From NCBI RefSeq assembly GCF_014844135.1, contig NZ_CP041403.1, positions 744,001 through 808,000 of the forward strand: DNA of 64,000 nt. The letters are read 5' to 3'. This DNA is from Arcobacter sp. FWKO B. Lineage in GTDB: Bacteria > Campylobacterota > Campylobacteria > Campylobacterales > Arcobacteraceae. The notes below the pieces were generated by a model. It saw only the letters and a program-made list of their open reading frames with translations, ran no database searches and was not told the DNA's origin. Position numbers and translations under genes: made by a program. Every line of letters starts with the position of its first letter. Positions within the stretch are counted from its first letter, which is position 1. Positions 223 through 27,278 of the stretch are shown one piece after another.

Positions 223-243
223 ACCAGTTAAAACTGGCGTTCC
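223..243. repeat. Palindromic intergenic repeat, copy 1 (CCAGTT..AACTGG + GTTCC)
   Basis: The stretch CCAGTTAAAACTGGCGTTCC is a perfect 6-bp inverted repeat followed by GTTCC. Related elements sit at 20605-20626 and repeatedly in 25926-26224, always outside genes. Next to this copy is a pyrimidine-rich AACCTACCAAC segment whose complement resembles sequence beside the 20.6 kb copy. No T-run follows, so a simple terminator is not obvious. Confidence 0.6.
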
Positions 244-20604: not shown

Positions 20605-20626
20605 ACCAGTCAAAGACTGGTGTTCC
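20605..20626. repeat. Palindromic intergenic repeat, copy 2 (CCAGTC..GACTGG + GTTCC)
   Basis: CCAGTCAAAGACTGGTGTTCC lies between the convergent ends of lsrK and the Cache histidine kinase. The 6-bp stem closes a 3-base loop. It belongs to the same family as the copies at 223-243 and 25926-26224. Confidence 0.65.
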
Positions 20627-25442: not shown

Positions 25443-25916
25443 ATGGATATGTTAAAAATAAACGATAAAGCACCTGATTTTTGTCTTCCAAACCAAGATG
25501 AAGTAGAGATTTGCTCAAGAGATTTGGCTGGTAAATGGATAGTTTTATATTTTTATCCAAAAGATAATACTCCAGGATGTACTACTGAAGCTTGTGATTT
25601 TACTGCTGCTATGCCACATTTTGAAGATATGGGTGCAGTGATACTAGGAGTTAGCCCTGATAGCCCTAAAAAACACAGAAGTTTCATAGAAAAACAAAAT
25701 CTAGGTATCACTCTACTTGCTGATGAATCAACTCAAACTGCACAAGACTTTGGCGTATGGCAACTGAAAAAAATGTGTGGCAAAGAGTATATGGGGATAG
25801 TAAGAAGTACTTTTATAATAGACCCTGATGGAAAAATCCAAGCTATTTGGAGTAATGTCAAAGTAAAAGGTCATAGTGAAGCTGTAAAGGCTAAGTTGGC
25901 GGAGTTACAGTCGTAA
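25443..25916 (+). CDS. bcp: Thioredoxin-dependent peroxiredoxin (Bcp/PrxQ type)
   Basis: 157 residues with the AhpC/TSA fold. YFYPKDNTPGCTTEACDF holds the peroxidatic Cys in PGCT and the resolving Cys five residues later, the PrxQ arrangement. Reduces hydrogen peroxide and organic peroxides using thioredoxin. An AAAGGA site precedes two close ATG codons (25443 and 25449). Last gene of the tlyA-ribF-cmoA-bcp run. Confidence 0.95.
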   Translation: MDMLKINDKAPDFCLPNQDEVEICSRDLAGKWIVLYFYPKDNTPGCTTEACDFTAAMPHFEDMGAVILGVSPDSPKKHRSFIEKQNLGITLLADESTQTAQDFGVWQLKKMCGKEYMGIVRSTFIIDPDGKIQAIWSNVKVKGHSEAVKAKLAELQS

Positions 25917-26225
25917 GTCGTGAGTGGAACGCCAAATTTATCTGGTGAAAAGTAAAGACAGACCCAGTCATAGACTGGGGTTCCAACGCAACGCCAGATT
26001 TATCTGGTGAAAACAGTTAAGCAAATATGAACTGCTTAACATTTGTAGGTTTGAAACTTTAGGTATGTACACTTTGCGTATCAGCGAAAGCAAAATTAAG
26101 ACCAGCCCAGTCATAGACTTGGGTTCATATGAAACGCCAGATTTATCTGGTGAAAAGTAAAGACAAGCCCGACATGTAGCGAGGTGGAATCCAGCAACGC
26201 AGTGAGGACACAAGTCGGGGTTCCT
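25917..26225. repeat. Cluster of palindromic repeat units between bcp and mqnE
   Basis: This 309-base gap between two convergent genes holds no gene that I can support. A first unit, 25926-25984, starts GGAACGCC, contains the word AAATTTATCTGGTGAAAA, then CCCAGTC-ATA-GACTGGG, and ends GTTCC. A CGCCAGATTTATCTGGTG hairpin recurs at 25992-26008 and 26135-26152. A second CCCAGTCATAGACTTGGG lies at 26106-26123. A longer unit, 26131-26224, closes with CCCGAC...GTCGGGG then TTCC. The units share the ends GAAACGCC/GGAACGCC and GGGGTTCC. Confidence 0.75.
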
Positions 26226-27278
26226 TTAAATCAACTCTTTATAAAGTGAATCTCTTCTTACAGGCTCAAATCCGCTATTTTTTATAAGTTCTACAAACTC
26301 ACCCAGAGGCATTCCGTTTTTGCTATTTGCCCCTGCGGCACTTTGGATTGATTCTTTTTCTATTGTTCCATCTAGGTCATTTGCACCAAATTCTTGAGCT
26401 ATTAGAGCTAGTTTCATAGTAGAAGTTACCCAATAAGCTTTTAGGCTTGGGATATTATCAAGAACTATTCTACTTATAGCCATAGTTTTTAGTATTTCAT
26501 TAGCTGTTAGTGCTTCTTTTACATTTAAAAAATTGTTTTGTGTTTGATACACAAGAGGAATAAAAGCATTAAAGCCACCAGTTATATCTTGTAAATCTCT
26601 AAGTCTTAGCATATGATCTATCCTATTTGCCCTACTTTCTATATGTCCAAAAAGCATAGTGGCATTTGATTTTTTCCCTTTTTCGTGCCAAAGTTTGTGG
26701 ATTTGTAACCATTCATCACTTTTTACTTTACCGCCACAGATTCTTTTTCTTACACTCTCATCAAATATCTCAGCCCCGCCACCAGGCATAGAGTCCACTC
26801 CGTATTCACACATAAGGTCAATTATCTCTTCATAAGATTTGTTATACTCTGTACTTAAAAAATGAATTTCAGCAGCAGTTAGAGCTTTTATATGTAAGTG
26901 AGGAAATTTATCTTTGATTTTTCTAAAAACTTCCAAATACCACTCTAGACCTGTGTTTGGGTTGTGAGCTGAAACTATATGTACCTCATCTATACCGTTT
27001 TTGACAGATTTTTCAACCTCAGCCAAAATCTCTTCATGGGTCATAGTATATTGATTTGGGTTTTTTCTACTTGCACTATAAGCACAAAATTGACATACAT
27101 CTTTACATATATTGGTTGGGTTAATGTGTCTGTTTACATTATAATATGTTTTTTTACCAAATTTATCTTCTCTTATTTTATTTGCATATTGTCCAAGTGT
27201 TAATAAATCCATATCATATAAAGCTAATGCTTCATCAAAATTTAATCTTTGCCCTTTATCTAATTTATTTAAAATCAT
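26226..27278 (-). CDS. mqnE: Aminofutalosine synthase (menaquinone, futalosine pathway)
   Basis: 350-residue radical SAM enzyme with CKDVCQFCAYS as the iron-sulfur motif. The sequence around it (YNVNRHINPTNICKD, EVHIVSAHNPNTGLEWYLE, MLFGHIESRANRIDHMLRLRDLQD) fits MqnE, which joins a SAM-derived adenosyl radical with the chorismate-derived enolpyruvyl benzoate to give aminofutalosine. MqnC is the closest alternative, but the NPTNIC and HNPNTG segments favour MqnE. Menaquinone via futalosine is usual in Campylobacterota. Overlaps by one base with the start of the downstream-adjacent membrane gene on the same strand, so it is probably co-transcribed. Confidence 0.88.
   Translation of the reverse strand: MILNKLDKGQRLNFDEALALYDMDLLTLGQYANKIREDKFGKKTYYNVNRHINPTNICKDVCQFCAYSASRKNPNQYTMTHEEILAEVEKSVKNGIDEVHIVSAHNPNTGLEWYLEVFRKIKDKFPHLHIKALTAAEIHFLSTEYNKSYEEIIDLMCEYGVDSMPGGGAEIFDESVRKRICGGKVKSDEWLQIHKLWHEKGKKSNATMLFGHIESRANRIDHMLRLRDLQDITGGFNAFIPLVYQTQNNFLNVKEALTANEILKTMAISRIVLDNIPSLKAYWVTSTMKLALIAQEFGANDLDGTIEKESIQSAAGANSKNGMPLGEFVELIKNSGFEPVRRDSLYKELI

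Follow-up and report, generated by a model that had tools for sequence, protein, structure and literature searches.

A REPIN family with the tag GGAAC in Arcobacter sp. FWKO B and the RAYT that probably disperses it

Here, we present an analysis of a family of palindromic repeats in Arcobacter sp. FWKO B, based on a stretch of 64,000 nucleotides (contig NZ_CP041403.1, positions 744,001 to 808,000; the window) and extended to the whole genome, to three congeners (G001, G002 and G003) and to relatives of the transposase. The repeats are very likely a family of REPINs (BIME-type REP doublets) dispersed in trans by the only RAYT (TnpA-REP, HuH/Tyr) of the genome, with GGAAC as the tag. Most likely, a single domesticated transposase spread the elements, and this transposase seems to read an unusual start signal: most RAYT-linked REPs described so far carry GT[AG]G, whereas the tag here is GGAAC, a point that the earlier note on this DNA had missed. 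What is new here is a REPIN/RAYT family in which a GGAN tag replaces GT[AG]G; the identity of the family as REPIN/RAYT is itself assigned with high confidence.

RESULTS

Repeat units in the window

The core CCAGTCNNNGACTGG had three matches in the window with at most one mismatch, whereas 0.04 were expected; the repeats are far above chance and genuine. The earlier note had placed an exact core followed by GTTCC at four positions. On inspection of the sequence, the exact core with (N)GTTCC was confirmed at 20606 and 25964 only; the copy near 223 has the stem CCAGTT/AACTGG and a short A-rich loop, and the copy at 26107 has one mismatch in the stem and terminates in GTTCA. To describe the copies, we used a covariance model (R1) that was built from 28 full units (alignment A1). 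The following features were found in the window:

223..243, minus strand: single REP hairpin, left type, read from the sequence as GGAACG-CCAGTTTTAACTGG-T on the minus strand.
20605..20626, minus strand: single REP hairpin, left type, read as GGAACA-CCAGTCTTTGACTGG-T on the minus strand.
25926..25984, plus strand: REPIN unit 1, 59 nt, with left hairpin, spacer and right hairpin; ends GGAAC..GTTCC; R1 E 1.3e-15.
25988..26127, plus strand: REPIN unit 2, 140 nt, a long, degenerate form with the tag GCAAC and an extra internal hairpin at 26016-26040.
26131..26224, plus strand: REPIN unit 3, 94 nt, with left hairpin and a right hairpin with a long loop; ends GAAAC..GTTCC; R1 E 1.9e-11.

Three of these units make up a block (25926-26224) that occupies the gap between two convergent stop codons, in agreement with the gene-end location originally proposed; the flanking genes encode an AhpC/TSA-type peroxiredoxin and a radical SAM protein with a CofH/MqnC C-terminal region. 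The lengths of 59 nt (25926-25984) and 94 nt (26131-26224) that had been given for two units were correct, while the 94-nt unit starts with GAAACGCC rather than GGAACGCC. The degenerate 140-nt unit (25988-26127) sits between these two, and R1 picks up both of its halves weakly (E about 0.001 each). R1 also matched 201-243 (E 4e-4 in a search of 12 sources and 0.006 in the genome-wide search). Its match at 20605..20626 was weak (E 0.003 and 0.05, respectively), and this hairpin is hence outside the 82 places described below. Folded as DNA, the window units were better than their shuffles to a varying extent (z from -1.7 to -5.3), with z of -2.26 for REPIN unit 1 and -5.26 for REPIN unit 3. A first Rfam search matched no families. 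Long REPINs with comparable additional internal hairpins were observed in two species (window 25988-26127 and genome position C1:889274-889414 in FWKO B; L214:6780-6957 in G001); for this form, Rfam gave matches only below the gathering score.

Anatomy and covariation of the unit

A full short unit is 56-64 nt long and has two hairpins and GGAAC / GTTCC ends. Its parts follow in the order GGAAC[G/A]-CCAG..CTGG-T, an A-rich spacer, AAGACAAG, CCCAG..CTGGG and GTTCC. Because the two halves are unlike, the element has a direction. Among the variants are left hairpins with a long loop, units of about 140 nt or longer, and left-type hairpins that stand singly. By pattern, we found 38 full units, i.e. 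two REPs in inverted orientation. A1 consists of 27 of these 38 together with unit 1 of the window, 11 longer units being omitted; all 28 rows carry the tag GGAAC, in an alignment picked for complete short units and therefore biased toward conserved ends.

When A1 was read as two separate hairpins, 98.3% of the cells were paired, and both sides had changed at 8 of the 13 pairs; the observed covariation was reached by none of 500 shuffles. These compensatory changes bear out the earlier observation that the stems vary while pairing is kept. One long hairpin over the whole unit was also considered and gave no clear excess, with shuffles scoring as high in 41 of 500 cases for covariation and in 63 of 500 for double-change cells. 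Because the hairpins covary separately, while the single long hairpin does not, each hairpin is conserved as a unit of its own, which is what binding of single REPs by a RAYT would predict.

Number and placement in the genome

The genome is a single contig of 2,243,170 bases. Using BLAST, the block had 66 matches in it, and the core CCAGTCNNNGACTGG with at most two mismatches was found at 59 places compared with 4 for a reversed control. R1 gave 127 rows on both strands; after merging, these correspond to 82 places at 65 loci (E<0.01). The genome-wide check for copies that had been suggested therefore returned many by each approach (66, 59 and 82, respectively), and with 82 places in 65 loci and covarying stems, the repeats are neither few nor without conserved structure.

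Based on simple ORF calls, 75 of the 82 places are outside ORFs of at least 100 amino acids (a place being counted as inside if more than 60% of its length lies in an ORF), and some of the remaining seven may be start-codon artefacts. The orientation was clear for 64 clusters: 10 are flanked by two ORFs on the plus strand, 31 by two on the minus strand, 17 by convergent and 5 by divergent ORFs, and for one the left neighbor is unknown; the place at 301878 has no clear orientation and was omitted from these counts. The repeats, whose distance to genes the earlier note had wanted checked, are thus mostly intergenic, with more convergent than divergent sites (17 versus 5). The same preference is described for other REP families in PMC3733652.

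Seven-base tandem repeats in the REPIN flanks were suggested by eye and were dropped after a count (5 of 130 flanks versus 3 of 123 control gaps). Two further loci are recorded here in their own right. At C1:491989-493626 on the minus strand (L231:3990-5627), a 545-aa ORF fuses an HPPK (FolK) domain (residues 31-155) to a tRNA 2-thiouridylase (MnmA-type) domain set (residues 208-542), and the linker of about 45 residues is translated in frame from REPIN sequence. At C1:2125573-2129225 (L047), three near-identical REPINs follow AAGCGATATTTTAA; they are 1.2-2.4 kb apart, surround accessory genes and enclose a fourth unit that differs from them.

The RAYT gene

A search of the genome for the Pfam family Y1_Tnp found one gene, a 177-aa ORF at C1:1660636-1661169 on the minus strand. 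In NCBIfam, it matches REP_Tyr_transpos best (E 2.8e-22; NF047646, 79.2 bits, just under the cut-off of 80). The gene is bordered by repeats, with the left hairpin ending at the stop codon and the right hairpin upstream of the start. Thus, a REP-associated tyrosine transposase, which the earlier note had proposed to look for, is present once and is situated among the repeats. Of 397 genomes of the phylum, 75 had some match (FWKO B included), and near full-length relatives were present in 13 other genomes (41-51% identity; one with an internal stop). In an alignment of 13 of the 14 clade proteins (A2; L177 was left out), the HuH histidines and the motif tyrosine do not vary. The A2 profile matched the solved TnpArep structure 4er8 with E 1.9e-5, ranked after several IS200-type transposases.

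GGAN in place of GT[AG]G

At their 5' foot, the hairpins of these repeats lack the canonical GT[AG]G, and, judging from the ends in A1, the units also lack the CGTC that marks one end of CGTC-tagged REPs. RAYT-linked REPs are tagged GTAG or GTGG in Table 1 of PMC2817692, and the REP tetranucleotide is "most often GTAG" in a passage of PMC8266576. A tag other than GTAG has precedent, because PMC6006769, in the portion available, notes subclasses without GT[AG]G.

Within 450 bases of 14 Campylobacterota RAYTs, GGAN tagged 93 of 336 hairpins; in 16 control loci from the same phylum, it tagged 35 of 631. In 20 block shuffles, the count averaged 8 and never exceeded 15. GT[AG]G was not enriched near the same 14 genes (9 of 336 versus 40 of 631). 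The reverse was seen in 35 relatives from other phyla, where GT[AG]G was enriched (118 of 846 versus 35 of 634 a few kb off) and GGAN was not (54 of 846 versus 56 of 634 a few kb off). All of these counts include overlapping hairpins, which makes P values optimistic. By locus, the GGAN share was above the control in 11 of 14; L168, L174 and L176 had no excess under this rule, which counts against our interpretation. Under a laxer rule allowing one stem mismatch, which chance matches also pass, one or more GGA-tagged hairpins lay within 500 bases at all 14 loci, and at L174 the one resembling the others is on one side only.

Of 13 RAYT-bearing genomes, 6 had 17-86 places that matched a pattern for one GGA-tagged consensus and the other 7 had 1-10, compared with 1-7 places in nine genomes with only short Y1 matches and 0-4 for reversed-pattern controls. 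The tags of the outside relatives L087 (Kamptonema) and L109 (Cloacimonadota) are GTAA, and those of L094 (Salinivirgaceae) are GGAC, GGAT and GTAC; tag variation extends beyond GT[AG]G and GGAN. Altogether, the tag class probably belongs to this RAYT clade, although PMC3733652, in the part available, lists GTAG repeats in Sulfurovum NBC37-1, which counts against it. In a literature search of texts outside supplementary tables, no paper stood out on such Arcobacter repeats or on epsilonproteobacterial RAYTs.

Guide-contact residues

In the tree, a branch with 100/100 support separates the 14 Campylobacterota proteins from the rest. For comparison, 77 relative loci were returned, of which 35 were used for flanks; 32 of these were submitted for residues (L105, L123 and L126 were not included), and 30 gave sequence (L091 and L122 yielded none). 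In E. coli, the W94-R104 stretch is tied to GTAG contacts according to passages of PMC6006769 and PMC8266576, and we set the equivalent residues by the motif spacing in these papers, without aligning the E. coli sequence. In the stretch thus equated, Asp and Arg are retained. The H101-equivalent is Lys in all 14 clade proteins versus Arg in 15 and His in 15 of the 30 outside relatives, and the Q95-equivalent is Gln in 3 of 14 versus 29 of 30.

The guide-contact loop of the clade has thus changed, and the tag class of the clade is unlike that of most relatives; we infer that the loop changes accompany the tag. Because the Lys arose with the clade, Lys versus tag is a comparison of one change against one change. 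Lys at the H101-equivalent as the sole cause of the tag was considered and is weakened by L094, which has Arg at this position with GGA-type tags and which the tree places, weakly supported, beside the clade. Lys alone cannot account for the tag, because L094 with Arg is of the GGA type and L087 and L109 have GTAA. We only tentatively suggest the change to Lys as a main cause of the tag, which we consider possible rather than probable.

Orientation relative to replication

dnaA is located at 1,215,171-1,216,460. In the stretches examined, the GC skew is mostly negative to the left of dnaA and mostly positive far to the right, with exceptions. With places at coordinates under 250 kb or within 10 kb of 1.216 Mb omitted, REPINs pointed with the fork at 60 of 77 places and in 46 of 60 clusters; after the toxin-antitoxin island (see below) and one repeated block were collapsed, this was the case for 34 of 48 loci (P = 0.0055). 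Of 32 same-strand sites, 26 have the REPINs oriented like the genes. When modelled jointly, both the arm (P = 0.009) and the direction of the genes (P = 0.005) have an effect, and at convergent and divergent sites alone 13 of 18 point with the fork (P about 0.1). Passages of PMC6006769 and PMC3116915 describe insertion into single-stranded DNA at forks for IS200/IS605 relatives. The orientation of the REPINs fits such insertion but does not prove it.

A toxin-antitoxin island around the RAYT gene

Eighteen of the 82 places lie within 8.5 kb (C1:1659.0-1667.5 kb; L046:9000-17500) among small ORFs and in one orientation, with the fork and against the genes. The RAYT gene is in this island, between the left and right hairpins. 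Several of the ORFs match DUF2442, DUF4160, Unstab_antitox, HigB/ParE-like, ParE and MntA-like families, some of them below curated cut-offs, and the island also holds a gene for a major outer membrane protein. Its counterpart in G001 (L214, G001:C61) has a different collection of small ORFs, and its five REPIN places are on the plus strand as well. A second palindromic repeat family (attccgtgtcaagcacggaatgac) was observed between cassettes at L214:1330-5290.

Because the RAYT lies between hairpins, the 18 REPINs are co-oriented and the cassette set of the congener differs, the island can be read as a cassette array in which the RAYT and the left and right hairpins drive the gain, loss and reordering of toxin-antitoxin cassettes without an integrase. 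We consider this very unlikely. If true, single-strand transposition between REP hairpins would do what integrons do with attC. REPINs as cassette borders were rejected: a duplicated cassette in G001 adjoins another palindromic repeat and has a REPIN at one copy only, which partly contradicts cassette exchange driven by REPINs.

Presence in congeners

R1 gave 19 rows in G001, 7 in G002 and none in G003, counting both strands. In 12 other genomes of the family, 10 had none and two had one borderline row each, and three genomes of other families had none. The repeat at window 20605-20626 is absent from G001 and G002 together with some flanking bases. In G002, no unit follows the peroxiredoxin gene, and the sequence beyond is dissimilar. 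The repeat at C1:617568 is missing in G002 and G003, that at C1:619849 in G003, and that at C1:614625 in G002, in a short readable stretch. Exact insertion borders could not be drawn from the congeners because their flanks are too diverged, so that these absences may also reflect deletion in the congeners. No close RAYT was found in G001-G003; G001 has one partial match (32%) and a weaker, broken one. That G001 and G002 carry REPINs with no close RAYT found counts against our interpretation; both assemblies are 86% complete.

DISCUSSION

The number of copies, the intergenic sites, the compensatory stems and a RAYT gene among the repeats support the guess in the earlier note that the repeats are REP/BIME-like. 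We infer that this RAYT binds and cleaves the repeats and that they are mobile at present. If the element became single-stranded, for example at a replication fork, the two hairpins would fold independently; the RAYT would bind a hairpin with its 5' tag and would cut and rejoin the DNA there; and units would spread to other intergenic sites, mostly past gene ends, where they would be least harmful.

The conserved stems and the excess of convergent over divergent sites (17 versus 5) would also be expected if the hairpins were selected as RNA elements, i.e. as terminators or mRNA-stabilising structures at gene ends, with the proximity of the RAYT being incidental, and three terminator-like sites, all on the minus strand, were found in window 25700-26500 versus 0.7 expected. 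However, a T run is mostly absent after the right-hand GTTCC ends, and Rfam gives nothing above the gathering score. Moreover, tagged hairpins cluster near RAYT genes in other genomes, and the occurrence of single, double and triple units, with 18 places in one island, fits dispersal better. We therefore regard an origin as RNA elements as very unlikely. Short terminal inverted repeats and asymmetric halves are also features of a MITE of a DDE-type insertion sequence, in which GGAAC..GTTCC would be cut by an ordinary transposase with no involvement of the RAYT. For such a MITE, to which we give a lower probability still, no target-site duplication was seen by eye in the flanks; in addition, left-type hairpins also stand alone, the hairpins covary individually, and the repeats are linked to RAYTs.

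It could also be argued, from the 18 co-oriented places between small genes in 8.5 kb and from the differing cassette set in G001, that the repeats are integron-type, attC-like sites separating the cassettes of the toxin-antitoxin island. But 64 of the 82 places are outside the island, and the GGAAC/GTTCC ends appear unlike the attC core consensus. Near the island, we noted only one recombinase-like ORF (205 aa), whose matches to integron/Xer models are weak and far below the cut-off, and the duplicated cassette of G001, with a REPIN next to one copy only, ends in other repeats. Sites of this kind are therefore extremely unlikely, and we favor REPINs dispersed by the RAYT.

REPINs of this kind resemble the REPIN/BIME and RAYT systems of Pseudomonas fluorescens SBW25 and Escherichia coli, which, as described in parts of PMC3116915, PMC8266576 and PMC2817692, consist of short intergenic palindromes in inverted pairs, in tens to hundreds of copies, with one cognate HuH/Tyr RAYT gene bordered by repeats; PMC3116915, in the part available, also mentions that tandem arrays in SBW25 are oriented oppositely on the two sides of the genome. 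Unlike those REPINs, which have GTAG or GTGG in the same sources, the family here has GGAAC (GGAN in the clade), a Campylobacterota host and only 82 places. In having REP-like structures without GT[AG]G beside the tnpAREP gene and copies elsewhere, it is similar to the non-GTAG subclass 2.6 and class 3 of tnpAREP (passages of PMC6006769). Subclass 2.6 is described there as mostly from Bacteroidetes, with atypical, weaker structures, whereas the stems here are clean and the tag is regular. The CGTC-tagged REPs and TIRtrons of PMC3733652 are likewise hairpin repeats that occupy intergenic sites where the genes converge or run in the same direction, and both GTAG and CGTC repeats are listed for Sulfurovum NBC37-1. 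In the sections available of that source, the CGTC repeats are without a linked transposase and some TIRs share GGGGWSAS, neither of which equals GGAN with a hairpin.

A RAYT clade in one phylum with GGAN hairpins provides natural and probably non-interchangeable RAYT/REP pairs. Co-evolution of RAYTs with their REPs is generally assumed, and GTAG is regarded as the standard guide. With natural pairs for GTAG, GTAA and GGAN, the rule by which the tag is read becomes testable by swaps between relatives. Finally, if the arm-dependent orientation is upheld in more genomes, it would be genomic evidence of single-strand, fork-linked mobility of REPINs.
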